DNA from: Thermoproteota archaeon
GTDB lineage: Archaea > Thermoproteota > Thermoprotei > Gearchaeales > Gearchaeaceae
NCBI GenBank assembly: GCA_021324265.1
Contig: JAJPJK010000004.1
Span: 1 to 64,000 of the forward strand
Direction: 5' to 3'
DNA length: 64,000 bases
Shown: positions 45,042-63,714 of the stretch, one piece after another
How the letters are laid out: the number at the start of each line of letters is the position of its first letter
Position numbering within the stretch: position 1 is the first letter of the stretch
The notes under the pieces: generated by a model
Seen by the model: the letters and a program-made list of their open reading frames with translations, nothing else
What the model was told of the DNA's origin: nothing
Databases searched by the model: none
Position numbers and translations under genes: made by a program

Positions 45042-46040
45042 ATGGCACAAAAGAAATTTCTGATTGCTTCATTTTCTCCCTTGCCCGAAAGTGTCATAGA
45101 GGGTTTCTTTTCGCCATTTCTAAGCGAAGTGAAAGCTGAAATAGAAATTGTTAGCCTATTTGGTGCAGATGAAAACAGGATTTTCAAAACTCTTGAGAAA
45201 GCAGACATAGTCATTGGAGATCATACATTCCAAATGAAAATAACCAAAGAAATGGTTGAACACATGAAGAATGTCAAACTAATTCAACAGCCAAGTACAG
45301 GCTATGATAATATAGATATCGAAGCATGCAGAGAGAAAGGTATACCTGTGGCTAACGCAGGAGGCGCCAATGCAGTCTCAGTTGCAGAATACACAATCAT
45401 GGTAGCGCTAGCTCTACTTAAGCGACTCTTTGAAGCGCATCAAAAAACCCAAGCTGGAGAATGGCCTCAATGGGAACTCATGGATCGAGGAACTTTTGAT
45501 CTTTCATCTCGAACATGGGGCATTATTGGACTTGGAAGAATAGGCAGCGAATTAGCTAAAAGACTAAGGGCATTCGATGTTAGAATCATATATTATGATA
45601 AGATAAGGCGTGAAGAAATAGAGAGAAGCTTAGGAATTGAATTCAGAAATTTGCCAAGGCTTCTCAAGGAAAGCGATATCATCTCGATACATGTGCCTCT
45701 TACAAAAGAAACAAAAGCCATGATAGGCGAAAAGGAGTTAAGGACGATGAAACCTTCAGCAATCTTCATCAATCCATCAAGAGGTGAGCTTGTGGATGAA
45801 AAAGCACTAGCTAAGGCATTACAGGAGAGATGGATCTGGGGAGCAGCTGTTGATGTATTTAGCGTAGAACCGCCTGATAAAGAGCATCCACTTTTAAATT
45901 TGAAGAATGTTAACTTAATTACAACTCCTCATATCGCAGGGGCGAACACAGATTCAAGATTTAGAATTATCGAGTTCAGCATTAAAAATGTAATAAGGGT
46001 CATCAATGGAGAAAAACCTGAAGGCGTTGTAAATTTATAA
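45042..46040 (+). CDS. D-isomer-specific 2-hydroxyacid dehydrogenase
   Basis: The 332-residue protein has the NAD-binding WGIIGLGRIGSELAKRL and catalytic residues in NPSRGELVDEKAL (Arg) and TPHIAGANTDSR (His), giving the D-2-hydroxyacid dehydrogenase pattern seen in 3-phosphoglycerate dehydrogenase and glyoxylate/hydroxypyruvate reductases. Without the ACT domain of SerA, a simple hydroxyacid substrate is likely. Its stop (TAA) overlaps the start of the ThDP enzyme as TAATG, so both are co-translated and probably act on the same 2-oxoacid. Confidence 0.88.
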   Translation: MAQKKFLIASFSPLPESVIEGFFSPFLSEVKAEIEIVSLFGADENRIFKTLEKADIVIGDHTFQMKITKEMVEHMKNVKLIQQPSTGYDNIDIEACREKGIPVANAGGANAVSVAEYTIMVALALLKRLFEAHQKTQAGEWPQWELMDRGTFDLSSRTWGIIGLGRIGSELAKRLRAFDVRIIYYDKIRREEIERSLGIEFRNLPRLLKESDIISIHVPLTKETKAMIGEKELRTMKPSAIFINPSRGELVDEKALAKALQERWIWGAAVDVFSVEPPDKEHPLLNLKNVNLITTPHIAGANTDSRFRIIEFSIKNVIRVINGEKPEGVVNL

Positions 46041-47731
46041 TGCCTGAACTAAGTGTTGCTAGATTCGTAGCACATTGCCTTTACCTAAACTCAGTTAAAA
46101 GGATTTATGGAATAATCGGCACTAGTGTGCTAGATTTCTTTGATGCGCTCTATGATTATAGAGCACAGATTAAATTTATCACAACAAGACATGAGCAAGT
46201 TGCGGTCTCTGCAGCAGATGCTGAAGCGAGGATAACAGGTAACATAGGAGTAGCTGTAGTTCATGCAGGTCCTGGATTCCTTAACTCCATTATATCGCTA
46301 GGCATCGCTATGAAAGATCGCATACCCTTACTTCTCATCACTGGAGGCGTGAGAAGGAGACTAAAAGGAACTGATGCATGGCTAGAGGTAGAGCAAGAAG
46401 ATATAGCTAAACCTATAGTTAAAGCTTACTTTAGGATCAATACACCAGTTGAAACACCTTCAATAATGAAGGAAGTCTTCGATGCGTTATCAAAGACCCC
46501 AAAAGGGCCTGTAATTTTAGAAGTGCCCGAAGACAACTGGAACGAAAAAGTCAGCTTCGATGAACATGTATTCAATGAGTTAAGATTAAGGGAAATGGAT
46601 GCAGGTACTCCGAAAAGAGAGAATATTAAAGAAATTTCGGATAAACTGCTAAATGCTAAAAGGCCTTTGATACTTGCATGCGGAGAGCTTACTCTTAACA
46701 AAGGTTATAGAGAAGAACTTTTAGAAAGGCTGTTGCAGAAAACTGGAGCCTATTTAATAACGAGCGGTAATGGAAGAGGAGCAATTAGCGAGGAAAACGA
46801 AAGAAACCTAGGGCGAGCTGGATATGGAGGCGGAAATCTAGTAGCAGATAGCGCACTAGAAAGTTGCGATTTCCTCCTAGTCCTTGGAAATGAGTTCGAT
46901 GATATAACAACCTATGCTTACACATTGCTACCTGAAGGCGAAGCAATAGCGGTAAGCAAAGATGATTCGATGAAGAAAAGACCAAGCTACTTTGAGCTTA
47001 TTGATGCTGATCCATTTAGTTTTCTAGAATACCTCAATAAAGAAATCGAAAATAGAAATAGTGTTGTTAAGCCAGAATGGGATGAAAGAATAAACGGTTA
47101 TAGAAAAAAATGGAGAGCCATGCTTGAAGAGGCAATAGCTAGAAAGTTTGAAGGAAGAGTTAACGTTTCAAGATTCTTCAAAACACTTGATGATAGGCTA
47201 CCAAGAAATCGCATTGTAACAGGAGGCCAAGGCGTCCATATCCTTTACGCTTATGATTATCTAAAAATATATAGACCTAGAAGCTTTTTGGCTGCTACAA
47301 ATCTAGGAGCTATGGGTTATGCATTTCCTGCAGCTATAGGAGCGAAGCTCGCGAGTAAAGAAGATGAAGTAATCGCGGTGCTTGGTGACGGTGATTTCAT
47401 GATGACAATTCAAGATCTGGAAACAGTTAAGAGAGAAAACATAGCGCTGAAAATGATTATTGTCAATGATAATAGCTATAGAGTTCTATATCAACGACAA
47501 GCTATTCAGAAGCAAGGAAGAATATATGAAACTCTATTACAAAACCCTGATTTCGTAAAGCTAGCAAACTCCTTTGGAATAAGTGCGATGCGTATAACAA
47601 GCGATGAAGAAATAATTGAAGCCGTGAATAAGTTAGTGGAAACAAAGGATCCATTCCTTCTCGAAATTGTCTGTGACCCAAATGACTTGCCTCCTCTCAA
47701 CTTAAAACAAACCTTGGAAATGAGCATGTAA
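46040..47731 (+). CDS. ThDP-dependent 2-oxoacid decarboxylase/acetolactate synthase-family enzyme
   Basis: This 563-residue protein has the ThDP layout: TTRHEQ with the proton-shuttling glutamate (E52), a central domain with SGNGRGAISEEN, and a C-terminal GDGDFMMTIQDLETV (about 449-463) with the Mg/ThDP motif GDG-x25-N. It fits the acetolactate synthase/oxalyl-CoA decarboxylase/benzoylformate decarboxylase superfamily. No small regulatory subunit follows, so acetolactate synthesis is less likely than a decarboxylation or carboligation. It is co-translated with the hydroxyacid dehydrogenase and followed by an aldo/keto reductase. Confidence 0.85.
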   Translation: MPELSVARFVAHCLYLNSVKRIYGIIGTSVLDFFDALYDYRAQIKFITTRHEQVAVSAADAEARITGNIGVAVVHAGPGFLNSIISLGIAMKDRIPLLLITGGVRRRLKGTDAWLEVEQEDIAKPIVKAYFRINTPVETPSIMKEVFDALSKTPKGPVILEVPEDNWNEKVSFDEHVFNELRLREMDAGTPKRENIKEISDKLLNAKRPLILACGELTLNKGYREELLERLLQKTGAYLITSGNGRGAISEENERNLGRAGYGGGNLVADSALESCDFLLVLGNEFDDITTYAYTLLPEGEAIAVSKDDSMKKRPSYFELIDADPFSFLEYLNKEIENRNSVVKPEWDERINGYRKKWRAMLEEAIARKFEGRVNVSRFFKTLDDRLPRNRIVTGGQGVHILYAYDYLKIYRPRSFLAATNLGAMGYAFPAAIGAKLASKEDEVIAVLGDGDFMMTIQDLETVKRENIALKMIIVNDNSYRVLYQRQAIQKQGRIYETLLQNPDFVKLANSFGISAMRITSDEEIIEAVNKLVETKDPFLLEIVCDPNDLPPLNLKQTLEMSM

Positions 47732-47768
47732 ACAATACTTGTATATTTCTTTATTGATATAACCATTC

Positions 47769-48596
47769 ATGGAAAAGAAAAGATTCGGGAATAAAGGCCC
47801 GCTTGTTTCTGAAATAGGCATGGGAACATATTACGATGTTGCATGGATCATACTATCAAGGATCGGTATTTTAAGAGGAAAAAACAAAAAGATTGAAGCC
47901 ATCAAAACAGGCCTAAGAGGCGGAATAAACCTCATCGACACTGCAGAACTGTATGGCTCTGAGCCACTTGTAGCAAAAGCTGTATCTGAATTCAATAGAG
48001 AAGAACTTTTCATATCTACCAAGGTTTGGCCTAGCCATCTTAAAAGAGATGCGTTGCTTAGAGCTCTAGATAATAGTTTGAAGAGACTTAATATGAAATA
48101 CGTCGATCTATATCTCATTCATTTTCCCAATCCTAGGATACCAATTCAGGAAACAATGAGAGCAATGGAAGAAGCGGTAGCAAATGGAAAGGTATTATAC
48201 ATAGGCTTGAGTAACTTTAACCTCAAACAAATAGAGGAAGCAAGAAATGCTTTAAGCAAACATGATATAACAGCAGTCCAGCTAGAATACAGTTTATTGA
48301 ATAGAAAGATCGAGAAAGATATATTGCCATATTGCCAGAAAGAAGGTATTGCTCTAATGGCCTATTATCCTTTAGGTCATGGAAGACTTGCAAAAGATAA
48401 ACGAAAGTTCGAACCATTCATAAAAAAATACGGTAAAAGTCAGGCCCAGATAGCACTTCGATGGCTAGCTGATAAATATTATGTATTCCCTATACCTAGG
48501 GCTTCCAATCCTATTCACATAGAAGAAAATTTAAATGCGTCTGGTTGGAAGCTCGATGAGGCAGATACTAAGCAACTAGAATATATATTTAGCTAA
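47769..48596 (+). CDS. aldo/keto reductase
   Basis: The 275-residue TIM-barrel protein has NLIDTAELYGSEPLV (catalytic Asp/Tyr), STKVWPSH (Lys) and LIHFPNP (His), so the full AKR tetrad is present. It reduces an aldehyde or ketone with NADPH, or the reverse. It lies 37 bases after the ThDP enzyme with its own GTATATTTCTT box about 25 bases upstream, and may finish the pathway by handling an aldehyde product (inference). Confidence 0.9.
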   Translation: MEKKRFGNKGPLVSEIGMGTYYDVAWIILSRIGILRGKNKKIEAIKTGLRGGINLIDTAELYGSEPLVAKAVSEFNREELFISTKVWPSHLKRDALLRALDNSLKRLNMKYVDLYLIHFPNPRIPIQETMRAMEEAVANGKVLYIGLSNFNLKQIEEARNALSKHDITAVQLEYSLLNRKIEKDILPYCQKEGIALMAYYPLGHGRLAKDKRKFEPFIKKYGKSQAQIALRWLADKYYVFPIPRASNPIHIEENLNASGWKLDEADTKQLEYIFS

Positions 48597-50994: not shown

Positions 50995-52044
50995 CTACGC
51001 TAAGGTTCCCTTAATACGCTTAGCCAAATCCTTGAGATCTTCGTGAACAAAATCGCCATTTTCTATTATAGTTGCACCGTCTGCGCGAAGAGTCGTATTA
51101 AGCATTACACAGTCTGTGTGAGACTTAGCTAACCCAAATTTGCCTTTGAAAGTTGGAGCTTGACTGCCAAACCCCCAGTCTAAGGCCCCCCATATCCTTT
51201 CGTCTTCTAGAATGTTACCTGATGGACGAGCATTTGGATTGCAACCTATAGCTATATGTGCTACGTTATACATATTTGGGTCATTTAGGTCTTCAAGCCA
51301 CCGTTTAAAGACCATCGCTTCTCTGCCGCCTCTTATACTTACAATTTTCCCATTTTCTATTCGTATTTCAATAGGTTTTCTTAAGAGCCCGAGTTCAAAT
51401 GGAGGGTAGGCAGAGACGTCTGCGACAAAAATGCCGTTTATAGATTCTTCAAGCGGAGCCCAATCAACTTGACCTACAAGCGCATAGTCTCCAGGACCAA
51501 AAATTTCGCCCTCAATTAGTATAGGTCTAGAACTATCATTTTCGAATGTCATATTTGTACCTTCGCTGGAAAAGAGTTCAAATCTTTTTGATCTGGACAC
51601 TATATTAGCTAATTTTTTTTGAAATTCAAACAAGAGCTTCAAATCGACTCTTCCAATCATTCTAACCATCATATCTGCATCCATCCCTACCAATATGAGA
51701 TATTTTGTCTTGTTGTTCAAAATCACCTCTTCGTAAATTGAAGAATAGAGTAGCCAAGTTTTATTGAACTCTAACCAAACATCAGCGTTCTTTAGTGCGG
51801 CCCTTAGGCTTCTCACAGGTAAATCTTTTTCTGCCTCCATTCCTACTCCGCTTGTCATATTATACCAAAGCACTAAGGGTTTAGCTCCAATAAGCTTAGC
51901 CGCTTGAGCCGTAGCAACGATTGCCCGATAATCAGAACCTGAATCAGCGGTTATAAGTACTTCATCACCCTTATTCACATGCAATATATCTTCGATCAAT
52001 TTCCTAGCTGCTATCGCAAGCTCGAATTCATACCCGCTTGTCAT
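50995..52044 (-). CDS. aminopeptidase-like protein, M29-related
   Basis: The 349-residue protein resembles M29-type aminopeptidases and the related NicX-type ring-opening enzymes: an N-terminal VNKGDEVLITADSGSDYRAIV block, a central SSEGTNMTFE, GEIFGPGD and AYPPFELGL, and later HIAIGCNPNAR, WGALDWGFG, AKSHTDCVML and the C-terminal ENGDFVHE, which supply the Glu/His/Asp metal ligands seen in this group. It probably hydrolyses a small peptide or amide. It lies one base after the DUF917 gene, forming a two-gene operon that faces away from the ABC operon. Confidence 0.75.
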   Translation of the reverse strand: MTSGYEFELAIAARKLIEDILHVNKGDEVLITADSGSDYRAIVATAQAAKLIGAKPLVLWYNMTSGVGMEAEKDLPVRSLRAALKNADVWLEFNKTWLLYSSIYEEVILNNKTKYLILVGMDADMMVRMIGRVDLKLLFEFQKKLANIVSRSKRFELFSSEGTNMTFENDSSRPILIEGEIFGPGDYALVGQVDWAPLEESINGIFVADVSAYPPFELGLLRKPIEIRIENGKIVSIRGGREAMVFKRWLEDLNDPNMYNVAHIAIGCNPNARPSGNILEDERIWGALDWGFGSQAPTFKGKFGLAKSHTDCVMLNTTLRADGATIIENGDFVHEDLKDLAKRIKGTLA

Positions 52045-52045
52045 G

Positions 52046-53125
52046 TTATTTCTTAACTAAAACCTCTACCGGTATGAAATCAAAGTCAAAACCGAAATGT
52101 CTAGGACCAAAAAGTTCAAGGCCTTTACTTGAACGCCATACCTTAGGTGATGGAGATGCTATAATGTGTACATATTCATTTATCTTCAACCGATTAGTAA
52201 GCAACGGCTGGCCATTTTCTTTGAGTAAGACGATTAAATCAGGAGGCATGACGATGGGCTTTCCGTTTATGGAAGCAAAGATGTACTCATTCTTGACATA
52301 TATGGTAAGCTCTGATGATTTATTCTCCAGCACTACATTGCCTTCAAGAAATTTTCCTGTATTCTGTAAATCAACCATTTTTACTACGCCCTCAAAAATC
52401 TTGTATCCCTTCAATAACTTGAGTAGCTCATGAATCGGATCCAAGTTTTCTTCAATACACCTTCTTACCGTTCTACCTAGCTCCAAGCAAAGGGTCAAAG
52501 TTCCTTCAATTACCACTTCTCGTGCATCTTTTCCATTTAAAGGAGTGTCTATAACAAATCCACTTCCCTTTGACAAATAAGAAACAAATCTGGCAATGTT
52601 TTCATAGTCATCTATACTCGCGGTGTTTTCTATCAATAGAGAGTTGCCTGTTTTTGTAACTATCACTGAAGGTGTAACTGGTTTACCAAAAATATGAGCT
52701 GTTGACTGATGCAACTCAGGTCCAGCTCTACCCATTAAATCCCCATCTACTACTGGCACATTTAATAAAGAAGCAACGAACAATGCAATCGATGTATTCC
52801 CACCTCCTATCTCGGATGCGACAATAGCGGTTATTCTTTTTTCCATTCTTCTCTCAAGTAAATGAAAAGCTTTTTTTACGAGTGCTACCGTTTCCTGCTG
52901 ACTCCTTTCCTCCAACGAACCCATTGAACCAACAAAGTAAGGAGACACCACGAAATCGTCATCGGTAAGATCAGAAACGCTTATGAAACTGATATTATTA
53001 TAAATGTCTTTCAAAAGCTCATACCCCAAATCAGGAGAGCCACCTCCTCCAGTTGCTAGTATTGTTGTACCTAAAATAAAGTCCTTAACATCCTCTATAT
53101 TCTTTAATATATTAATTTGTTTCAT
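52046..53125 (-). CDS. DUF917 (S-methyl-thiohydantoin desulfurase-like) protein, copy 1
   Basis: This 359-residue protein begins ATGGGGSPDLGYELL after a short helix, and has EIGGGNTSIALF, DGDLMGRAGPELHQST and GPRHFGFDFDFIPVE near its end. These are the hallmarks of DUF917, a family usually found next to HyuA-type proteins. Family members have been linked to thiohydantoin and hydantoin breakdown. It is divergent from the ABC transporter operon (64 bases between starts). A second copy lies at 59314. Confidence 0.85.
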   Translation of the reverse strand: MKQINILKNIEDVKDFILGTTILATGGGGSPDLGYELLKDIYNNISFISVSDLTDDDFVVSPYFVGSMGSLEERSQQETVALVKKAFHLLERRMEKRITAIVASEIGGGNTSIALFVASLLNVPVVDGDLMGRAGPELHQSTAHIFGKPVTPSVIVTKTGNSLLIENTASIDDYENIARFVSYLSKGSGFVIDTPLNGKDAREVVIEGTLTLCLELGRTVRRCIEENLDPIHELLKLLKGYKIFEGVVKMVDLQNTGKFLEGNVVLENKSSELTIYVKNEYIFASINGKPIVMPPDLIVLLKENGQPLLTNRLKINEYVHIIASPSPKVWRSSKGLELFGPRHFGFDFDFIPVEVLVKK

Positions 53126-53160
53126 TTATGTTTTTTTTGTTGAAGTACTTATAAACATTA

Positions 53161-53170
53161 CTTTTTAAAA
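53161..53170 (+). promoter_or_regulatory. TATA box for the ABC importer operon
   Basis: CTTTTTAAAA is centred about 25 bases before the ATG at 53190, supporting this start and a leaderless message. Confidence 0.5.
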
Positions 53171-53189
53171 CACCTCTCTATAATAGCTC

Positions 53190-54842
53190 ATGAACAAAAA
53201 AGCTATTGGAAAAGGATTAATAGTAATAATAATATTGGTGGTTATTATTGTAGCTGTCTTGGGAGGGTACTATTACTCACTATTAAATAGCCAACAGAGC
53301 CAGCCAAAGAAAACGGTTGTAGTGTATGCCTCTATATCGGAGATGACATCTGCAGATCCTAGCACCGAGTTCTCAAATTCAATAATGTGGCTTGCATTTA
53401 CATATGAAAGATTGATCTATTATGATCCTATTCAAAATAAACTTATACCTGAATTAGCAGTGAGTTGGGAAAGAAGCCAAGATAATCTAACTTGGACTTT
53501 TCACCTTAGACACGGCGTAACCTTCCATGACGGGTCTCCACTCAATGCCGATGCAGTAATCTTTTCATTGAACAGGACGATTACACTAGGTCAAGGCGCC
53601 GCATTCCTTTGGGCTTCTGTCAAGTCCATTGAAAAAGTAGACGATTATACAGTAAGGCTACATCTAAACTATCCAGCACCAATTGATTTGATTGCTTCTG
53701 CAGCCTATGCTAGTTATATATTCAGCCCTAAGGTAGTGCAATACGCAAAAGCTTCCAATGCAACTGATCCTAAAATAAGTGATTGGTTCAACGCAGGAAA
53801 TGACGCTGGATCAGGTCCCTATAAATTAATCAAATGGGATCCAAAAAATGAAGTGATTTTTGAAAAATATAGCGCTTGGTGGGGATGGAATGCAACAGAT
53901 TACCCGTTAAAATCTAGTAGCGCTCCTGATATATTCACAATAAAAATCGTCGCGGATGCTGTAACACAAGAAAATATGCTTCTTGCAGGCCAGATCCAAA
54001 TCGCTCAGCAAGTACCGTTGGAGGATCTTAACAATCTTAAAAATAATCCCAATATTCAAGTTGTAACGAAACCAAGTTTCCAGCAACTGATCCTCCTTTT
54101 AAATACAAAAAAGGCACCTTTAGATAATGTGCTAGTAAGGGAAGCTATAGCTCACGCAATACCCTACGATGACATCGTAACCGTGGCGAGATATGGATAT
54201 GCAAGGGTTGCTAGTGGCCCTGTGCCATATGGTATGTGGGGTCATTCAGATCAATTCAGATATAGTTACAACTTAACATTAGCAAAAAGCCTCCTAGTTC
54301 AAGCTGGATATCCGAACGGAATTAATAGAAAACTTTTGTTAACATACACTACTGGAGATATATACGAAAAAAGGTCTGCTGAACTGATTCAGTCTGCTTT
54401 AGCCCAAATAGGTATCCAAGTAGATGTGAGACCGCTAAGCTGGGATGAACAGTGGGCTCTTGCTAAATCTGGATGGGAAAATCCGAACAATGCTCAGGAT
54501 ATACTTATGTTCTATTGGTGGCCAACATATAATTCGCCTTTCGACTTCTTATATAATATGTTTGATAGCCAAAGCAAAGATTTCAATCTTGGGTACTTCA
54601 CAAACGAAACTTTCGACAACTTACTTTCAACAGCAGTTACTCTTGAAGGTTCTGATAGAGAAAAAGCAACTACCCTATATCTTCAAGCACAGCAAATCAT
54701 TTACGAACAAGTTGCAGGGATACCACTTTGGGATATGACATACGTAATTGCCGCCTCTTCAAGTCTTTCCAATTTGGACATGGCCATAAATCCGGCATAT
54801 CCGACTGTAATCTTCCCACAGGCTCTATCTTTAAAGAGCTGA
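53190..54842 (+). CDS. ABC transporter substrate-binding protein, oligopeptide type
   Basis: The 550-residue protein has an N-terminal KAIGKGLIVIIILVV-type hydrophobic segment (residues 5-26) that resembles the class III (pilin-like) signal peptides of crenarchaeal binding proteins, then the SBP_bac_5 fold: LAVSWERSQDNLTWTFHLR, GVTFHDGSPL and the DWFNAGNDAGSGPYKL block. It binds peptides or similar compounds outside the cell and delivers them to the permease. It is the first gene of the operon ending at 58488. Confidence 0.9.
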   Translation: MNKKAIGKGLIVIIILVVIIVAVLGGYYYSLLNSQQSQPKKTVVVYASISEMTSADPSTEFSNSIMWLAFTYERLIYYDPIQNKLIPELAVSWERSQDNLTWTFHLRHGVTFHDGSPLNADAVIFSLNRTITLGQGAAFLWASVKSIEKVDDYTVRLHLNYPAPIDLIASAAYASYIFSPKVVQYAKASNATDPKISDWFNAGNDAGSGPYKLIKWDPKNEVIFEKYSAWWGWNATDYPLKSSSAPDIFTIKIVADAVTQENMLLAGQIQIAQQVPLEDLNNLKNNPNIQVVTKPSFQQLILLLNTKKAPLDNVLVREAIAHAIPYDDIVTVARYGYARVASGPVPYGMWGHSDQFRYSYNLTLAKSLLVQAGYPNGINRKLLLTYTTGDIYEKRSAELIQSALAQIGIQVDVRPLSWDEQWALAKSGWENPNNAQDILMFYWWPTYNSPFDFLYNMFDSQSKDFNLGYFTNETFDNLLSTAVTLEGSDREKATTLYLQAQQIIYEQVAGIPLWDMTYVIAASSSLSNLDMAINPAYPTVIFPQALSLKS

Positions 54843-54844
54843 AA

Positions 54845-55867
54845 GTGCCTGTTAGCTTAAGATACGTAATCAAAAGAATTTTTTACCTTTTTCTTGTAGT
54901 TTTAGGTGTTATAACCATAGTTTTTATAGCCACTAGGATCATTCCTGCTCACCCAGAATTCTTATGGGCAGGGCCTCATGCTACTGAGGAACAGCTCCAA
55001 GAGGCTAGAAACGAATTAAGATTAAATGACCCGATTTGGGTACAGTATGTTTATTTTATTGAAAATATGCTCACTTTTAATTTTGGAATATCTTGGAGTT
55101 CTCGTCATCCCATCTCTCAAGACATACTTTCTGCATTGCCCGCAACTCTGGAACTTGCCATAAGTGGATTCATTATAGGCATTTTAATAGGTTTATTTCT
55201 AGGTATAAGAGCTGCAGTAAAATACGGTAGTATTATCGATAAATTTGTTCGAAGCCTTTCTATATCTGGTTCTGCAATACCCGTTTTCTGGTTGGCATTA
55301 ATATTTCAGCTTATATTAGCGATAAAATTAGGAATTTTGCCTGTTGGTTATAGGATAGACCCTAATGCAGAAATCCTTGAGGGTTTCCAACCAATAACGG
55401 GATTTTACACAATAGACACATTAATTGAAGGAAAATTCGATCTTTTTCTAGATGTTCTTAAAAGACTGCTGATGCCTGCACTCGTAGTATCTGTATATCC
55501 TTTGTGTTTAACCGCCAGAATGACCAGATCGCTAGCACTAGAAACCCTACAAGAAGATTATGTAAGAAATATGAGAAGCTGGGGTGTAAAAGATAATGTA
55601 ATAATAAGGAAATATGTAATCAAAGCTGTTATTCCTCCACTAATCGCTTCATTGGGTTTATCCTTCGGGTATGCTCTCGTAGGATCATTTCTTGTTGAAG
55701 TAATATTCGCATGGAATGGACTTGGGATGTACGTCGTCCATGCACTAGCTAATTACGATTTCCCCGCAGTCATAATAAGTGTAATGACCGTTGCAATCAT
55801 CTACAGTTCAATAAATACAGTTGTAGATATCCTTCATGCATATTTGGATCCTAGAATTAGATTATGA
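54845..55867 (+). CDS. ABC transporter permease, DppB type
   Basis: About 340 residues with six helices: VIKRIFYLFLVVLGVITIVF at the N-terminus and the EAA loop of binding-protein-dependent permeases (MRSWGVKDNVIIRKYVIKAVIPP). The chosen start is GTG at 54845, two bases after the substrate-binding gene, since the open frame running back to 54728 lies inside that gene. It pairs with the DppC-type permease. Confidence 0.9.
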   Translation: MPVSLRYVIKRIFYLFLVVLGVITIVFIATRIIPAHPEFLWAGPHATEEQLQEARNELRLNDPIWVQYVYFIENMLTFNFGISWSSRHPISQDILSALPATLELAISGFIIGILIGLFLGIRAAVKYGSIIDKFVRSLSISGSAIPVFWLALIFQLILAIKLGILPVGYRIDPNAEILEGFQPITGFYTIDTLIEGKFDLFLDVLKRLLMPALVVSVYPLCLTARMTRSLALETLQEDYVRNMRSWGVKDNVIIRKYVIKAVIPPLIASLGLSFGYALVGSFLVEVIFAWNGLGMYVVHALANYDFPAVIISVMTVAIIYSSINTVVDILHAYLDPRIRL

Positions 55868-56748
55868 TAATATCATCAAGATTTATACGAGAATATTATG
55901 AATATCTCAAAAAAGATAAGCTAGGCTTGACAGGAGCCATTATTGTAATGATCTTTATTTTCCTTGCAGTATTTGCGCCTTACATTGTACCTTATCCTGC
56001 TGATGCATGGGGATACGCTTATAATATTGAACAAAGATTGCAACCTCCAAGCTTAGCACATCCCTTTGGAACTGATGTATATGGCCGTGATGTTTTCAGT
56101 AGGGTTATTTTAGGTTCTAGATTCTCTCTAATCATAGCCCTCGGCGTCGTATCTATAGCCTTACTTATAGGCGTTGTTCTTGAATTGTTTGCAGGTTATT
56201 TGGGAGGAAGAATTGGAACTTTTTTCATGAGAATAACAGATATGTTTTTGGCATTTCCTCCAATTCTCCTAGCACTCCTCTTTGCGGTTGTGATTGGTAG
56301 AGGATTGCTCAATCTCATTATTTCGCTAAGTTTAGCATGGTGGCCTTGGTACGCTAGGTTGACATATGTTCAAGTAACAACAGTGAAAAACATGCCTTAC
56401 ATAGATGCTGCTAAGATAGCAGGTATTAATACTCCTACAATAATCTTCAAATACATACTCCCAAACTCATTAACGCCAGTAACAGTTCAGGCTTTCCTTG
56501 ATATGGGAGCCGCTATTCTAGAAGCTGCTGCTCTGAGTTTTATTGGGATAGGTGTGCAGCCTCCAAATCCCGAATGGGGTTTGATGATAAGTGAGGGTTG
56601 GTATTTAATAGGGGTTGCATGGTGGATAAGTATATTCCCTGGTATAATGCTATTTTTAGTAGTTATGGCCTTTAACTTTCTAGGCGATTCATTCAGAGAA
56701 TTTAATAATCCTAAAGTTAGAAGGTTATTAGAAAGTAGGGGAATATAA
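55864..56748 (+). CDS. ABC transporter permease, DppC type
   Basis: The 294-residue protein has an N-terminal cytoplasmic helix, then six helices; HPFGTDVYGRDVFSRVILGSR is the signature of DppC/OppC proteins, and the EAA loop is DAAKIAGINTPTIIFKYILPN. Its start overlaps the end of the DppB gene by 4 bases. Together they form the membrane pore of the importer. Confidence 0.92.
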   Translation: MIISSRFIREYYEYLKKDKLGLTGAIIVMIFIFLAVFAPYIVPYPADAWGYAYNIEQRLQPPSLAHPFGTDVYGRDVFSRVILGSRFSLIIALGVVSIALLIGVVLELFAGYLGGRIGTFFMRITDMFLAFPPILLALLFAVVIGRGLLNLIISLSLAWWPWYARLTYVQVTTVKNMPYIDAAKIAGINTPTIIFKYILPNSLTPVTVQAFLDMGAAILEAAALSFIGIGVQPPNPEWGLMISEGWYLIGVAWWISIFPGIMLFLVVMAFNFLGDSFREFNNPKVRRLLESRGI

Positions 56749-57698
56749 TGGAGACATTATTAACGGTTGATGATTTAAAGATTTCATACAAATCTGGTAA
56801 CTATTATATAAAAGCTTTAGATGGGGTATCTTTTGAGATAAAAGAGGGAGAATCATTGGCTATTGTTGGGGAATCAGGTTCAGGAAAATCCACACTAGGA
56901 ATGGCAATAGCAAGGTTGCTGCCCCCAAATGCCATAATTGAAAAAGGAAGAATTGTCATGAAAGATATAGATATCCTTAATTCGAAACCGGATTCTATAA
57001 GAGGAAAGCTAATTTCTATGATACCTCAAGAAGTTGGAACAGCTTTAAGCCCTTTTCATAAAATATCGACGGTATTTGAGGACGTTATGGCCTCAGAAAA
57101 CAAAGCTACGAATATACTAAACGAGGCATCAAAGATCTTAGCATTTTTAGGTTTCAAAGATCCTGAAAGAATCCTGAAATCTTACCCTCATGAATTAAGC
57201 GGAGGAATGTTGCAGCGGGTACTTTTGGCTTTAGCTATCATAAAACGACCCTATCTAATTATTGCAGATGAACCAACTTCAATGGTGGACGCACCGTTAA
57301 GAATTAACATCGTAGAAATTCTTAACGCTGTAAGGAAAGAATTCAACATATCAATGATCATAATTACGCACGACATTGCAATAACCCCTCATCTCTGCGA
57401 TAACATTGTAGTAATGTATGCAGGTAAAATCATGGAATATGGTAAAGCAAAAGAGATAATAGATAACCCTTTAAATCCTTACACAAAACTTTTAATAAAC
57501 TCCATACCTAGGATAAAAACCGCAACTAGATTTGAGGTCATAGAAAGAAAAAATACCCAAATTCAATTTTACAAAGGGTGTCCTTTCGCAGATAGATGCG
57601 AAAGTTTTATGAAAGGTATTTGCGACATAACGATACCGCGATATACATCTCTTGGAAATAGAAAAGTTTTGTGTCACCTCTACAATGATAAAAAGTAA
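56748..57698 (+). CDS. ABC transporter ATP-binding protein, DppD type
   Basis: The 316-residue protein has Walker A GESGSGKST (41-49), the signature LSGGM, Walker B LIIADEPTS and the oligopeptide-type C-terminal extension CPFADRCESFMKGICD, whose cysteines bind an Fe-S cluster in DppD relatives. It energises the importer. It begins at the last base of the DppC gene. Confidence 0.92.
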   Translation: METLLTVDDLKISYKSGNYYIKALDGVSFEIKEGESLAIVGESGSGKSTLGMAIARLLPPNAIIEKGRIVMKDIDILNSKPDSIRGKLISMIPQEVGTALSPFHKISTVFEDVMASENKATNILNEASKILAFLGFKDPERILKSYPHELSGGMLQRVLLALAIIKRPYLIIADEPTSMVDAPLRINIVEILNAVRKEFNISMIIITHDIAITPHLCDNIVVMYAGKIMEYGKAKEIIDNPLNPYTKLLINSIPRIKTATRFEVIERKNTQIQFYKGCPFADRCESFMKGICDITIPRYTSLGNRKVLCHLYNDKK

Positions 57699-58488
57699 AA
57701 GCCTCCTAAAAGTTCAAAATGTAACGATACTTTTCAGAAAAAATATTGGGGTGCTTAAAAAAGAAGATATGATAATTCGTGCAGTAGACGGAATAAGCTT
57801 TGATGTTGAAGAAGGAGAAATTTTAGGTATCGCTGGAGAATCAGGTTCAGGAAAATCCACACTTGCGAAAAGTATTGCAGGACTGCTGAAGCCAACAAGT
57901 GGAATTATATTGTTCGAAGGAGAGAATATTTATGAAATCAAAGGGGAAAAATATAGATATTTCAGAAAAAATGTCCAAATGGTGTTCCAGAACCCCTTTG
58001 GTTCTCTTAATCCTTCAATGAAGATAAGAGATACATTAAAAGACGTGCTTAAAGCAGCAAAAAAAGAAACTAACGAAGACGTTCTCAGATCATTGATGGA
58101 ATTTGTAAATCTAAATTATGAAATTTTAGACAAATATCCTTCAGAACTTAGCGGTGGTCAAGCTCAAAGAGTTGCTATAGCGAGAGCTATTGCGACCCAA
58201 CCTAAGCTTTTGATACTCGATGAACCAACTTCAGCACTAGATGTTTCAGTGCAAGCCCAAATTCTTACATTATTGAAGAAAATACAGACCGAGAAAGGAC
58301 TTACCTATATATTGATATCGCATGACATAGGTGTAATAAGATACCTCTGCAAAAGAGTTATAGTAATGAAAGCTGGAAAGATTGTGGAACAAGGAGACAT
58401 TGAAGATATTATTTACCGTCCTAAAGAAGAATACACAAAAAGATTAGTTGAAAGTTTGCTTAGGCTTTATGGTTATATTGAAAATTAA
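57685..58488 (+). CDS. ABC transporter ATP-binding protein, DppF type
   Basis: About 267 residues; Walker A GESGSGKST at 51-59, QMVFQNPFGSLNPSM, signature LSGGQAQRVAIARAI, Walker B LLILDEPTS. The ATG at 57685 overlaps the DppD stop by 14 bases; the further upstream ATG at 57652 would overlap more and is less likely. The Walker A region is nearly identical in DNA to that of DppD (about 26 identical bases in a row), suggesting recent shared ancestry or gene conversion. The usual C-terminal oligopeptide extension is shortened. Confidence 0.9.
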   Translation: MIKSKSLLKVQNVTILFRKNIGVLKKEDMIIRAVDGISFDVEEGEILGIAGESGSGKSTLAKSIAGLLKPTSGIILFEGENIYEIKGEKYRYFRKNVQMVFQNPFGSLNPSMKIRDTLKDVLKAAKKETNEDVLRSLMEFVNLNYEILDKYPSELSGGQAQRVAIARAIATQPKLLILDEPTSALDVSVQAQILTLLKKIQTEKGLTYILISHDIGVIRYLCKRVIVMKAGKIVEQGDIEDIIYRPKEEYTKRLVESLLRLYGYIEN

Positions 58489-58512
58489 TTTTTAGAAAAT
58501 GATAATTATACT

Positions 58513-59187
58513 GTGAAAAAACTCGGGTTAATAACTATAGGACAAAGCCCAAGAGATGACGTGACAAAAGAGCTTATACCACTCCTAGATTCGAATGTAG
58601 AGATCTTAGAATATGGAGTCCTCGACGGTTATAATGAAGATGTAATTGCAACAATGTTTGGACCCAGAGATGGAGAAATAGTATATGTGACAAGGCTGAG
58701 AAATGGAAAAGAAGTTATTGTATCTAGAAATAAAATCCTAAGAAATATGATTCAACTATTAAAAAGAATAGCAAAAAAGTCACCCGATATAATAGTTATT
58801 CTATGCTCTGGAGAATTTCCTACTTACAAAATAGGAATACCGATAATATACCCAGATAAGTTACTGAAAGGAATTAGTTCAAGTCTTAAAATTGATAAAA
58901 AAACTGCAGTTATAATACCCTCAAAAGAACAAATAGAATATGCAGTAGCAAGATGGAAAAAATATTTCAAAAATTTAGCTATATATCCTATATCTCCCTA
59001 TACATCTGATGAAAAGATTTTTATCCAATTAAGCAAAGAATTTAAGAAAAAAGACATAAGATTAGCATTGATGGATTGTATTGGTTATACTTTAAAACAA
59101 AAAGAAATTTTAGAAAAAAATTCCCCACAAACAATGATTATAAACACTAGATCAATTCTTTCGAGATTTATTTCTGAGTTAATATAA
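58513..59187 (+). CDS. AroM-family protein
   Basis: The 224-residue protein begins KKLGLITIGQSPRDDVTKEL, the AroM signature, followed by LEYGVLDGYNED and GEIVYVTRLRNGKEV, and SGEFP, which carries a conserved cysteine just before (LCSGEFP). AroM proteins look like Asp/Glu racemase-fold relatives and are found beside DUF917 and HyuA genes; their reaction is not known. The start is GTG, 24 bases after DppF. Confidence 0.85.
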   Translation: MKKLGLITIGQSPRDDVTKELIPLLDSNVEILEYGVLDGYNEDVIATMFGPRDGEIVYVTRLRNGKEVIVSRNKILRNMIQLLKRIAKKSPDIIVILCSGEFPTYKIGIPIIYPDKLLKGISSSLKIDKKTAVIIPSKEQIEYAVARWKKYFKNLAIYPISPYTSDEKIFIQLSKEFKKKDIRLALMDCIGYTLKQKEILEKNSPQTMIINTRSILSRFISELI

Positions 59188-59277
59188 ATAATACTTCAAA
59201 TGTCAAAGTTATTCTTTAATTAATTTTTATATAGTAGAAAGTTAGTTGAAAATTCTCTATTGCCAAAAAAGAACAAA

Positions 59278-59293
59278 CTTTAAATATATAATC
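59278..59293 (+). promoter_or_regulatory. TATA box for the DUF917/HyuA operon
   Basis: CTTTAAATATATAATC is centred about 26 bases before the ATG at 59314, so this pair has its own promoter besides any read-through from the ABC operon. Confidence 0.5.
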
Positions 59294-59313
59294 ATAATAA
59301 TAAGCATTAAACT

Positions 59314-60417
59314 ATGAGTAGATATAAACTCAAAAAACAAGATGTAGAAGATCTTGTTACTGGAGCAGCAATACTGGGCACAGGAGGTGGTGGAGACCCA
59401 TATGTAGGTAAACTTATGGTTCTACAACAACTAGAAAGAGGTAAGGAAATTGAGATAGTAGATATGGAAGAAATTGATGACAATGCTTTTGTAGTGCCTG
59501 TTGCAGCCATGGGAACGCCAGTCGTATTATTTGAAAAGATTCCTAGCGGTAAGGAGGCAATATTTTCATTAAACCTTTTAGAGCAATACTTTAACAAGAA
59601 AGTTGATTTCATATCACCTATAGAAGCAGGCGGTATAAACTCTACGATACCTTTGGTTGTAGGCGCTGAGAGAAAGCTTCCTGTTATAGATGCTGATGGT
59701 ATGGGCCGAGCATTTCCTGAATTACAAATGGTCACGCTGCACGTTTATGGCATCAAGGCTACTCCAATGGCATTGTCGGACGAAAGAGGCAATGCTGTTA
59801 TTCTTGATACGGTTGATAACTTTTGGGCTGAAAAAATTGCTAGAGCCATAACAGTAAGAGTAGGAGGCTCTGCTTGGATAGCGATCTATCCAACTACAGG
59901 CAAACCATATAAACAAGCTGCTATTAAAGGGAGTATTTCTTTAGCAATTGAAATAGGCAGAGTACTAAGGGAAGCTAAGGCTTCAGGGAGAAACCCCATA
60001 GACGCATTGCTAGATTTAACAAAAGGATATGAACTCTTCAAGGGAAAAATAATAGATATCAAAAGATTTAATGTTGGAGGATTCGCAAGAGGTGAAGCCG
60101 TTATTGAAGGTTATGATAACTATAAAAACTCACGTTTAATTGTAAGATTCCAAAACGAAAATCTTGTCGCCATTAGAGATAACGAAATAATAGCTTCTGT
60201 ACCTGATCTAATAACAATTTTAGAGAGCGAAACAGGTAAGCCTATTACTACTGAAAGATTGAAGTACGGACTCAGAGTTCTAGTTATAGGCTTCCCATGC
60301 ACAGAAAAATGGAGAACCGAGACAGCGTTAAGGGTTGTAGGACCTAAGTACTTTGGCTATGACATAGATTACTTACCAATAGAAAACAGAATGCGAAAAA
60401 TTAGTACGTTAACATGA
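59314..60417 (+). CDS. DUF917 (S-methyl-thiohydantoin desulfurase-like) protein, copy 2
   Basis: At 367 residues, with LGTGGGGDPYVGKL, PIEAGGINSTIPLV, DADGMGRAFPELQM and GPKYFGYDIDYLPIE near the end, it matches copy 1 throughout yet is clearly distinct. Its stop overlaps the start of the HyuA-type gene as ATGA, so the two are co-translated. This pairing is the usual bacterial one, which suggests that copy 2 is the HyuA partner while copy 1 partners the aminopeptidase. Confidence 0.88.
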   Translation: MSRYKLKKQDVEDLVTGAAILGTGGGGDPYVGKLMVLQQLERGKEIEIVDMEEIDDNAFVVPVAAMGTPVVLFEKIPSGKEAIFSLNLLEQYFNKKVDFISPIEAGGINSTIPLVVGAERKLPVIDADGMGRAFPELQMVTLHVYGIKATPMALSDERGNAVILDTVDNFWAEKIARAITVRVGGSAWIAIYPTTGKPYKQAAIKGSISLAIEIGRVLREAKASGRNPIDALLDLTKGYELFKGKIIDIKRFNVGGFARGEAVIEGYDNYKNSRLIVRFQNENLVAIRDNEIIASVPDLITILESETGKPITTERLKYGLRVLVIGFPCTEKWRTETALRVVGPKYFGYDIDYLPIENRMRKISTLT

Positions 60418-61985
60418 CTAAATATAAAATAGGAATTGACGTTGGTAGTACACATACAGACGCAGTACTACTCGACGAAAACAATAGAATAATATATGCT
60501 GATAAAACCATGACTACGCAAGATGTAACGAGCGGTATCATAAACGCACTAAAACTTGTATTGGAAAATTCAAAAATTAGAAAAGATGATGTAGTAGCTG
60601 TTATGTTCGGCACTACACATATTATTAATGCAATCGTTCAAAGGAAAGGATTGGGTAAAGTAGGAGTTATACGTATAGGTCTGCCAGCAACTGAAGCAAT
60701 AGAACCCCTCTTAGATTGGCCATCTGATCTAAGAACAGTGGTTTTAGCTGGTTCAGCAATGATAAAAGGAGGACATGATTACACAGGCGAACCAATCATG
60801 GAATTCGATGAAGAAAAAGCTAAAAGGGTATTAGAAAGGTTCGGTGAACTTAGAGTGGATGCTATTGCTGTTACATCTGTATTCTCTACCGTAAATAATG
60901 AACATGAAGTCAAAATAAAGGAGATGGCAAGTAGGATTTTACCTAATACTCCAGTTGTGCTTTCTCATGAGATTAGCTCAATAGGATTACTTGAAAGAGA
61001 AAATGCAACGGTACTCAATGCAGCAACAATCAATGTCATGCAAAATGCAATGAAAGCTTTAAAAACTGCACTAATAGATTTAGGACTATCACATGCGAAG
61101 ATGTTCTTTGCCCAAAATGACGGGACAACAGCACTTGCAGAATATATATTAAGATTCCCTATTTTCACTACCATTGCTCCTGTATCGAACAGCATTAGAG
61201 GGGCATATGTACTAACAGGCATTCCCAATGCATTGGTAGCTGACACAGGAGGAACCACAACAAACATAGGCGCATTAGTAAATGGTTACCCCAGGGAAAC
61301 GCTGGAAATTGAAATTGGAGGGGTCAGAACTAACATTCGAGCGCCTGATCTTCTTGCTGTAGGTTTAGCGGGAGGAAGCATAGTGAAATTCCATAATGAT
61401 GACGTATCAATAGGACCATTAAGTGTAGGCTATAGGCTAATATGGGAAGGCATCGCTTGGGGAGGAAATACTATTACAGCTACAGATATAGCGCTTGCGA
61501 AAGGTGCCATGTATATAGATGATCCAAATTGCAAGATAGAATTAGCAAAAGAGAAAATTCCGTCGAAAATGATTGACCTAGCTTATAACAAAATGGTATC
61601 AATGCTCGAAGACTACTTAGATAGAATTAAAACCAGACCTGAGCCCGAAACTGTAATACTAGTTGGAGGAGGATCAGCAATGTGGCCTAAGAAACTGAAA
61701 GTTGCTAAAGAAGTGATAAGACCTGAATACGCACAATTCGCTAATGCTGTAGGCGCAGCAACAGCTTTGGTAGGATCAACAGTGGAAAAGGCATACTCCT
61801 ATGAAAAAATAGCTAGAGAAAAGGCAATACAAGAAGTTTCAGAAGAAGCTAGACAGAGAGCGATAGATGCTGGTGCAGAAGCTGGTTCTGTCGAAATTGC
61901 TGAAGTAGAAGAGGTTGCAATGCCCTATTTGCCTGGAACAGCTGTAAAGATAAGAATAAAAGCCGTAGGAAAACTTAGATTATAG
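60414..61985 (+). CDS. hydantoinase/oxoprolinase A-type protein (HyuA-like)
   Basis: The 523-residue protein has an actin-like ATPase fold: GIDVGSTHTDAVLLD at the start, the hydantoinase A region with VLSHEISSIGLLERENATVLNAA, then LVADTGGTTTNIGALVNG and VGLAGGSIVKF. Hydantoinase A enzymes open hydantoin- or 5-oxoproline-like rings with ATP, usually with a HyuB partner, but no HyuB gene is seen here. Alone with DUF917 it is the known short operon form. Confidence 0.9.
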   Translation: MTKYKIGIDVGSTHTDAVLLDENNRIIYADKTMTTQDVTSGIINALKLVLENSKIRKDDVVAVMFGTTHIINAIVQRKGLGKVGVIRIGLPATEAIEPLLDWPSDLRTVVLAGSAMIKGGHDYTGEPIMEFDEEKAKRVLERFGELRVDAIAVTSVFSTVNNEHEVKIKEMASRILPNTPVVLSHEISSIGLLERENATVLNAATINVMQNAMKALKTALIDLGLSHAKMFFAQNDGTTALAEYILRFPIFTTIAPVSNSIRGAYVLTGIPNALVADTGGTTTNIGALVNGYPRETLEIEIGGVRTNIRAPDLLAVGLAGGSIVKFHNDDVSIGPLSVGYRLIWEGIAWGGNTITATDIALAKGAMYIDDPNCKIELAKEKIPSKMIDLAYNKMVSMLEDYLDRIKTRPEPETVILVGGGSAMWPKKLKVAKEVIRPEYAQFANAVGAATALVGSTVEKAYSYEKIAREKAIQEVSEEARQRAIDAGAEAGSVEIAEVEEVAMPYLPGTAVKIRIKAVGKLRL

Positions 61986-61993
61986 AAAAAATT

Positions 61994-62362
61994 TTAAATT
62001 TTTAGAATATTTATTCCGTTTTTCCTAGCAAAGTATAGATTGGCAATCCAAACCAACGTAATTATTGTAGCCAATGCTAATTCTATAGGCTTTGCAGAAC
62101 TATCCATATATGGGGATACTTGAATTGAAAGGTATGCTGTTACTATGGATATTATAAGCCATGCAGTTGCAACTATTCTTCCATACTGAATATTGAGAGA
62201 GAAGTATATTCCCATTAAAGCAGTCAATAACATGAAAGTAGCTATAGCCATTGTATGATAAAGCGCGTTTTGATTATTGTTTAAAGGATACGTACCGAAA
62301 AGGATTAAAGAAAATACTAGTTGCATCACAGAAAAGTATAGGCTTATCTTTTCGTAGTTCAT
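61994..62362 (-). CDS. small membrane protein, NCS1 operon
   Basis: The 122-residue protein has about four helices with no named family. Its start overlaps the end of the NCS1 permease gene by 4 bases (ATGA type), so it is likely co-translated and may be an accessory to that transporter. Confidence 0.65.
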   Translation of the reverse strand: MNYEKISLYFSVMQLVFSLILFGTYPLNNNQNALYHTMAIATFMLLTALMGIYFSLNIQYGRIVATAWLIISIVTAYLSIQVSPYMDSSAKPIELALATIITLVWIANLYFARKNGINILKI

Positions 62363-63714
62363 TTCTCCAAACCTCCTTTGTAAAGGTACTTACCTAGCTC
62401 ATATTTAACGCCAGCACTCTTGAAAATAGCAGCTATAACTATATGTGCAATAAATGCAACAGCCAAGGCATTTATTGCTGCAATTCCAAAGTTTAAAAAT
62501 AGCCCTGCCAAAGAACCTAGTATAAAGGATATAACTCCAACTAAGTTTAAATCTGCATACTCCTTCCCTGGAATTAATTTATACCTTTCATACGCATTTT
62601 TCACACCCTCTATGTATGGCTTTACTACAAAGAAATCTGCAAAAACCGACCCGCCTGCAGCTGGTAACAAACTACCAAGTAGCGTTATAAAGTTCTCAAA
62701 TGGTTGCAAAGAAGCACCTGCAGAATATCCCCAGTATGCAGCCAATAGTGTACCTATAATACCAACAATTATTGAGGAATAATCCCTTCGTATAGGTATG
62801 GCATTAGTGAAGCTTAAACTTCCACTGTATAAGTTAACTGTATTTATAATCCATTGACCAAGTATTATTATTAATAACACTCCAAAGCCCATTCCAAGCT
62901 TCAACATATCTTCCGTTATAATTACACTGCCCGCAAGAAGAACAATAGCTACAGCGCCTATCAAGAGGAATGGATAGAAAATAAACATATGCAAAACCCA
63001 TGCTACAACTGCGTTAGATGGTTTTCTTGCGAATCTCGTTATATCAGGTGCTATCAACGAACCAGCTATATAAAGTCCAACAACGGCCGTGATTGCATCA
63101 GCCATACTCATTGAAGATGAAGGTTGTGCAGACCATACTGCACCCCAACCACCATGCAGAGATACAGCAAGTATAAGACCTACTGCAATTAGCCAAACAT
63201 GCTGAGGCAGTATGAAATAGCTAAGGAACGATAAAGCTTTGTAGCCTATGTAGGTTGACAGTATCATGAGTGCTCCTCCCCACAAAGCAGCAACCCAAAC
63301 AGAAAATAATGGATTAGTAGGATCTATCTCATTCATTACGACACCAAAAAACCAGCTCTCAACAGCAAACCAACCTATTCCGGTCGTTACAGTTATCAAT
63401 GCAAACCCTAATATTTTGCCTGCAATTCTTCCGAACGGAAAACGCCATCCTACATATGTCGAAAGGCCTGAATATGCTCCTATAACGCCAGTTAATGCTC
63501 CTATTACAGAGAGTATTATGTTCCCTGCCATGATGGCTATGAGTGCGTTTGTGAAACTTAAGCCTCCACCAAGCACACCGCCTGCAAATAGAACTGCAAT
63601 CGCCCCGAATGCTGCGCTTAAGGTCAAAAATAGATTGTATAGCCCATATCTCTCACTACTTGGTACTTCCTCTAATGAATAATCATCGAATGTAGTTCGC
63701 TTTTGTTCAGTCAT
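62359..63714 (-). CDS. NCS1-family permease (purine/cytosine/hydantoin type)
   Basis: The 451-residue protein has about 12 helices. The segment SYFILPQHVWLIAVG and GLYIAGSLIAPDITRFARKP are typical of the cytosine permease branch of NCS1 (the SLIAPDITRFAR run matches CodB-like proteins). NCS1 carriers take up cytosine, purines, allantoin or hydantoins with Na+ or H+. Its place beside the HyuA/DUF917 genes makes a hydantoin-like or purine substrate attractive. A CTTTATATATC box lies about 25 bases before the ATG on the minus strand. Confidence 0.88.
   Translation of the reverse strand: MTEQKRTTFDDYSLEEVPSSERYGLYNLFLTLSAAFGAIAVLFAGGVLGGGLSFTNALIAIMAGNIILSVIGALTGVIGAYSGLSTYVGWRFPFGRIAGKILGFALITVTTGIGWFAVESWFFGVVMNEIDPTNPLFSVWVAALWGGALMILSTYIGYKALSFLSYFILPQHVWLIAVGLILAVSLHGGWGAVWSAQPSSSMSMADAITAVVGLYIAGSLIAPDITRFARKPSNAVVAWVLHMFIFYPFLLIGAVAIVLLAGSVIITEDMLKLGMGFGVLLIIILGQWIINTVNLYSGSLSFTNAIPIRRDYSSIIVGIIGTLLAAYWGYSAGASLQPFENFITLLGSLLPAAGGSVFADFFVVKPYIEGVKNAYERYKLIPGKEYADLNLVGVISFILGSLAGLFLNFGIAAINALAVAFIAHIVIAAIFKSAGVKYELGKYLYKGGLEK

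Follow-up and report, generated by a model that had tools for sequence, protein, structure and literature searches.

Gene pairing of a short HyuA-type ATPase with a DUF917 protein in an archaeal transporter locus, and its possible role in cyclic-amide scavenging

Gene content of the locus

A block of twelve genes at positions 50995–63714 of a 64,000-nucleotide stretch of archaeal DNA (the window) was analyzed, with emphasis on a gene pair that encodes a short HyuA-type ATPase and a DUF917 protein. The window is part of contig C11 of a 1.45-Mb archaeal genome (G000) that is 95% complete, carries an archaeal 16S gene and was characterized as belonging to a hot-spring-type archaeon. Other G numbers denote relatives among 300 genomes of the phylum, and L numbers denote loci. 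A sequence-only reading had described the block as an M29-like aminopeptidase, two DUF917 proteins, a full Dpp-type ABC importer, AroM, HyuA, and an NCS1 permease with an accessory membrane protein. All twelve genes were present as open reading frames (ORFs). Pfam and NCBIfam searches, which returned two DUF917 proteins, SBP_bac_5, two BPD permeases, two ABC ATPases, AroM, HyuA, and NCS1, confirmed this description for all but the aminopeptidase.

The DUF917 gene of the pair, THD2 (59314–60417, plus strand), encodes a 367-aa S-Me-THD-like protein of a HyuA-paired clade and overlaps by 4 bp with the HyuA gene (60414–61985, plus strand), which encodes a 523-aa ASKHA ATPase. These proteins are proposed below to act as hydrolase subunit and ATP-dependent activating subunit, respectively. 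A TATA-like element (59279–59290, plus strand) approximately 30 bp 5' of the THD2 start suggests that the module to which the pair belongs has its own promoter. On the minus strand, the gene for the NCS1 permease (62359–63714, PF02133, 451 aa) overlaps by 4 bp with that for a small membrane protein of 122 aa (61994–62362), an NCS1 accessory conserved together with NCS1 in five relatives of the same class or family.

Upstream, on the plus strand, lie genes for the solute-binding protein of a Dpp/Opp-type ABC importer (SBP, 53190–54842), DppB- and DppC-type permeases (PermB, 54845–55867; PermC, 55864–56748), a DppD-type ATPase with an oligo_HPY domain (ATPD, 56748–57698), a DppF-type ATPase (ATPF, 57685–58488), and the 224-aa AroM (58513–59187). 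For PermB, a GTG start at 54845 is more plausible than TTG at 54728; for ATPF, ATG at 57685 is the more plausible start. The second DUF917 gene, THD1 (52046–53125, minus strand, 359 aa, S-Me-THD-like), is separated by 1 bp from a gene for a 349-aa NicX-like protein, a probable metal enzyme of M29/COG2309 type (50995–52044, minus strand). Between THD1 and the SBP gene, a putative divergent promoter region of 64 bp (53126–53189) contains one TATA-like element (TTATAAA / TTTATAA) that is legible on both strands.

Strands, intergenic gaps, and TATA-like sites suggest that the block comprises at least four transcription units rather than one. The first would consist of THD1 and the NicX-like gene; the second, divergent from it across the 64 bp, would run from the SBP gene through PermB, PermC, ATPD, and ATPF to AroM; the third would be THD2–HyuA with its own TATA-like element; and the fourth, on the minus strand with a TATA-like site upstream, NCS1 and the small membrane protein gene. 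The transcript ends of the block are likewise predictions.

Following NCS1, just beyond the window, the contig carries a gene for an NCS2 xanthine/uracil-type permease (PF00860; contig 64.16–65.63 kb, L003:4165-5634) and, further downstream, an aconitase X gene (PF04412; L003:11473-12642). On the other side of the block, genes for a 2-hydroxyacid dehydrogenase, a TPP-dependent acetolactate-synthase-like enzyme, and an aldo/keto reductase lie in tandem (45042–48596, plus strand) next to a gene for a GlgX-like debranching enzyme, and may represent a separate small pathway.

Recurrence of the HyuA–DUF917 pair and of two modules

All 18 short HyuA genes in the 300 genomes adjoined a DUF917 gene, at approximately 600 bp from match to match. 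Conversely, every DUF917 gene that scored above 180 bits (18/18) was located next to a short HyuA gene; only 2 of 52 lower-scoring DUF917 genes were near one, and both of these flanked a HyuA gene that was already paired. An arrangement of HyuA between DUF917 genes on both sides was seen at L122:6925-10615 and L070:8235-11893 (Thermoplasmata; G081, G088). When named genomes were scanned with HyuA as the only selection criterion, the best 80 matches, a sample thus biased to near relatives, yielded 79 loci from Archaea, Bacillota, Proteobacteria, Actinomycetota, and others. DUF917 was adjacent and on the same strand in all 79, with gene order DUF917–HyuA in 59 and reversed in 20. Most pairs overlapped by 1–4 bp, with −4 and −1 as the commonest gaps; a few large negative values reflected over-long or broken ORF calls. 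NCS1 genes were present at 62 of these loci, racemase genes at 16, AroM genes at 6, and cyclodipeptide oxidase (CDO) genes at 2.

Sequence distances of DUF917 proteins and their HyuA partners were strongly correlated (r = 0.91, 88 pairs). When partners were swapped between paralogous pairs in nine loci, r dropped to 0.08, with a mean of 0.00 for random permutation; since the swap was made within loci, species history was controlled for in this co-divergence. Two tandem DUF917–HyuA pairs were present at the bacterial loci L124, L125, L129, L134, L141, L143, and L190; at such loci of Bacillus type one pair had diverged and a sigma-54 activator gene was often near. Other bacterial neighbors of the pair encoded TetR (approximately 20 loci) and sigma-54 regulators, SDR, M19 dipeptidase, M20 peptidase, CN_hydrolase, PucR, and OPT proteins. 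Published data sets offer independent hints: in C. difficile, RNA-seq showed joint changes of consecutively numbered permease, DUF917, and hydantoinase genes (PMC12915319), and in L. rhamnosus the protein accessions of a cytosine permease, DUF917, and hydantoinase follow one another (PMC7513527).

The HyuA of the window matched Hydant_A_N and Hydantoinase_A (PF05378, 1.5e-39; PF01968, 2.1e-23), and its nearest named relatives were from Thermoproteota (Caldivirga, Desulfurococcales, Ignisphaera). By profile score, short HyuA is a distinct clade: short forms scored 790–941 bits and a broken copy 563 bits, cleanly apart from conventional long HyuA at no more than 190 bits. The phosphate motifs P1 (D9xGSTHTD16) and P2 (D277xGGT), as defined in PMC8453981, were intact, and D9, T13, T15, D16, D277, G279, and G280 were invariant across 47 short HyuA sequences, among which the last Thr of P2 was rarely changed. 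A structural model (pLDDT 92.7) had acetone carboxylase beta, N-methylhydantoinase, and the caprolactamase subunit CapA as best matches, which shows, by prediction, a HyuA-type fold. HyuB (PF02538), the usual partner of HyuA, was found in G000 solely on contigs C6 and C12, beside long HyuA, and not on C11. In the other genomes, too, HyuB genes were located elsewhere than short HyuA.

The DUF917 Pfam families are now PF06032 and PF20906 (S-Me-THD-like). THD1 scored 147 and 164 bits and THD2 202 and 248 bits against them, above the gathering cut-off. The sole solved structure matched by a model of THD2 (pLDDT 94.3) was 2o3i (E 5.5e-25), an uncharacterized structural-genomics entry. Residues E74, E104, N109, D128, R132, E173, K245, N281, and E282 were present in all 58 sequences of the THD2 clade, and D126, E136, R177, and others in at least 90% of them. 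No His or Cys was conserved among these 58 sequences, and THD2 therefore cannot carry the zinc site of HyuB.

The 300 genomes were searched with DUF917 and AroM, and 20 loci were read. The block is composed of two modules, both of which recur in other archaea. Module A comprises THD2, short HyuA, NCS1, the small membrane protein, and AroM, often with DUF1177; module B comprises the Dpp-type ABC importer, THD1, and the NicX-like enzyme. Module A was also present in G296 (same family) and in G050, G117, G248, and G265 (same class), with 70–82% identity of THD2, HyuA, and NCS1. In G265, short HyuA occurs as two ORFs of 182 and 322 aa (L067:4852-6430), which represent a frameshift, a pseudogene, or an assembly error. 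Module B was also present in G117, G265, and G200, the last with an Asp/Glu/hydantoin racemase gene between the NicX-like gene and THD1, while in G277 THD1 and the NicX-like gene were accompanied by no more than a distant SBP-like gene. The block was complete and nearly identical in order in G117 (L065), where DUF1177 lies between AroM and THD2. Identity of the ABC importer to that of the window was 43–62% in G200 and only 24–43% in G117, which indicates that the importer was exchanged or diverged faster than module A. Homologs in unrelated places would have spoken against the functional grouping of the sequence-only reading; the neighborhoods were instead conserved across families, classes, and even domains, so that the association is far beyond chance.

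At L076, L077, and L079, genes for AroM and a NicX-like protein accompanied an ABC importer in the absence of HyuA; L076 and L077 additionally contained DUF1177, an Asp/Glu racemase, and a low-scoring DUF917. This arrangement suggests a role for AroM and the NicX-like protein in the ABC module as well.

Candidate functions of the block

The explanation that we favor, with about an even chance of being correct, is that the block serves to scavenge small cyclic amides by means of two modules, with short HyuA and DUF917 opening the ring at the expense of ATP. We infer a physical HyuA–THD2 complex, its chemistry, the transport steps, and the class of substrate as follows. The NCS1 permease would import a hydantoin-like ring or a related five- or six-membered cyclic amide, whose stereocenter may be isomerized by AroM, a protein of the Asp/Glu/hydantoin racemase kind. 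Short HyuA and THD2 would form one enzyme, in which HyuA would phosphorylate the ring amide (hydantoin-like or diketopiperazine-like) with ATP and THD2, with a putative site of acidic and amide residues, would attack and open the activated ring. In the solved two-subunit relative, CapA phosphorylates and CapB hydrolyzes (PMC8453981). THD2 would thus occupy the role of HyuB in ordinary ATP-dependent hydantoinases, and DUF917 seems to stand in for this usual second subunit. Module B would handle a second, peptide-like or heterocyclic substrate, or the product. Uptake and ATP-dependent opening of a cyclic amide or hydantoin, as proposed in the sequence-only reading, is thus retained as the best-supported interpretation; the peptide-bond cleavage that was to follow is weakly supported, as the supposed aminopeptidase had no M29 match.

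Slightly more tentative than this is the wider proposal that short HyuA and DUF917 represent an undescribed class of two-component ATP-dependent cyclic-amide hydrolases that is widespread in both Bacteria and Archaea, has DUF917 in place of HyuB, and usually has its own NCS1 permease. DUF917, AroM, DUF1177, and short HyuA are common proteins without an assigned function, and the fixed HyuA–DUF917 partnership turns two of them into one testable enzyme. If the proposal is true, the ATP-activating subunit of hydantoinases can couple to an unrelated hydrolase fold, and a nitrogen-scavenging route would be common to hyperthermophilic archaea, bacilli, and gut bacteria.

Several observations weigh against the favored explanation. 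The adenosine-binding motif of CapA, GxxPGP (defined in PMC8453981), was absent from all 47 short HyuA sequences and the C-terminal third of the 523-aa protein matched no Pfam family, so that ATP use is itself presumptive. Many DUF917 genes, THD1 among them, lack a HyuA neighbor, and ATP activation is therefore not a general need of DUF917 proteins. In G296, the closest relative, the ABC importer is not at the locus, for which reason the two modules may have separate functions. No HyuA–DUF917 gene fusion, which would have served as proof that the two form a complex, was found in the 79 loci and 20 context loci, and no biochemical data on any pair of DUF917 with short HyuA were found. Fusions of HyuA and DUF917 are known from fungi.

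5-Oxoproline, named as a candidate substrate in the sequence-only reading, is unlikely, because G000 has two conventional long-HyuA/HyuB pairs elsewhere in its genome, and in Sulfolobus acidocaldarius a pair of this type constitutes the 5-oxoprolinase (PMC11486757).

That modules A and B are mere neighbors with unrelated substrates, and that HyuA is a non-catalytic, regulatory or activating ATPase for DUF917, is unlikely, although several features fit it: the four or more putative transcripts, the absence of module B from the locus of the nearest relative and of module A from the G200 and G277 loci, and a short HyuA core that resembles activator ATPases (1hux). However, G117 and G265 hold both modules within one contig region, and the HyuA–DUF917 pair is far too constant for accident.

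A thiohydantoin route, in which THD1, THD2, or both would remove sulfur or an S-methyl group from a thiohydantoin before HyuA or another enzyme opened the hydantoin, would agree with the NCBIfam names of characterized DUF917 members (thiohydantoin and S-methyl thiohydantoin desulfurase). Both proteins of the window matched these models (NF058529/NF058532), but at 77–101 bits, far under the cut-offs of 440–450, and assignment of either to that equivalog was rejected. The route also leaves the one-to-one pairing with an ATPase unexplained, and desulfuration is, to our knowledge, not ATP-dependent. No paper on a thiohydantoin desulfurase enzyme was found in the open literature. We regard this route as distinctly unlikely.

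Degradation of imported peptides or diketopiperazines, by a set that originally included cyclodipeptide oxidase and of which only the ring-handling part was kept here, appears improbable. In its favor, the G117 block ends with CDOA (PF00881) and CDOB (PF19585) genes, which immediately follow that for the small membrane protein (L065:3729-4578), HyuA–DUF917 pairs lie beside CDO genes in G071, G134, and G170, and, according to a passage of PMC11055893, the surroundings of CDO genes are enriched in DUF917, AroM, and dipeptide ABC importers. However, CDOB was present in G117, G071, G134, G170, and G145 and absent from G000, where a cyclodipeptide oxidase was accordingly rejected, and CDO genes occur in just the two of 79 pair loci mentioned above. 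We know of no diketopiperazine hydrolase activity of DUF917 or HyuA.

The best solved relative of the NCS1 permease was the cytosine permease CodB. Its aromatic sandwich (Trp108/Phe204) is kept as W115/Y215 and TM8 Asn280 as Asn291, whereas the cytosine-bonding Gln105 is replaced by Gly112 and Thr278/Thr279 of the sodium site (Na2) by Ile289/Ile290. With this key contact lost, identification as a cytosine permease proper was rejected. Four residues after the sandwich Trp, E119 is invariant and, mapped by offset, would correspond to Gln121 of Mhp1. Nucleobase salvage or degradation, with import by this permease and enzymes acting on a dihydropyrimidine, allantoin, or another purine breakdown ring, is very improbable in view of these replacements and of the absence of deaminase, dihydropyrimidinase, and allantoinase genes from the block, despite the relationship to CodB, the NCS2 permease gene at approximately 64.2 kb, and the PucR regulators next to some bacterial relatives.

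AroM matched PF07302 with 191 bits (cut-off 23.8). In a profile search its best solved match was the hydantoin racemase 2eq5, with a weak E of 0.042 and two aligned Cys. C98 is invariant, while C189 of the window is Ser in four of 14 relatives, which makes it doubtful that all members are strict two-base racemases. Similarity of AroM to hydantoin and glutamate/aspartate racemases is also predicted in the passage of PMC11055893.

The 349-aa protein matched no Pfam or NCBIfam family, the M29 model included, at E ≤ 0.001, and its identification as an M29 peptidase was rejected. Its sole meaningful sequence match in the PDB was NicX, a 2,5-dihydroxypyridine (DHP) dioxygenase (E = 1.2e-10), to which it is, by sequence, nearer than to M29 peptidases. 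Invariant H263, H309, and D311 align with the NicX Fe ligands H265, H318, and D320; the fourth ligand, Ser302, corresponds to Ser294, which varies among relatives. The DHP-binding H105, E177, and H189 of NicX align, weakly, with S101, I177, and Y187 and are not conserved. The protein is probably a metal enzyme with a substrate other than that of NicX. DUF917 genes lay no more than 10 kb from 18 of the 29 NicX-like genes with scores above 300 bits, and directly adjacent to 14 of them.

Comparison with known systems

The combination of families is not special to this archaeon: in the passage of PMC11055893, CDO-associated clusters, also in Thermoproteota, combine DUF917, AroM, racemase, and dipeptide ABC importers. 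The window differs from these in that its genome lacks CDOB, and that passage discusses neither NCS1 nor the pairing of short HyuA. The general cluster type is already partly published. In the open literature searched, a scope outside which most subscription journals lie, no description of the obligate pairing of short HyuA with DUF917 was found.

With NicX (7cn3, 2,5-dihydroxypyridine 5,6-dioxygenase), the 349-aa protein shares weak full-length homology and three of four Fe(II) ligands; the Ser ligand varies among its relatives, and the substrate-binding residues differ. The NCS1 permease resembles CodB and Mhp1 in its aromatic sandwich and family profile and differs in the Gly and Ile replacements and in the invariant Glu at the presumed position of Mhp1 Gln121. 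THD1 and THD2 share both Pfam domains, and THD2 the fold (2o3i), of the DUF917/S-methyl thiohydantoin desulfurase superfamily, but both score far below the equivalog cut-offs, and the THD2 clade is tied to short HyuA. With HyuAB, OplAB, and CapAB, the pair has in common the HyuA-type ASKHA fold, the P1 and P2 motifs, a two-gene operon, and a cyclic-amide context. In contrast to these systems, the HyuA of the window is approximately 170 aa shorter, has no GxxPGP motif, and is obligately partnered not by HyuB but by DUF917, whose clade has no conserved His and hence no D-H-D-H zinc site.

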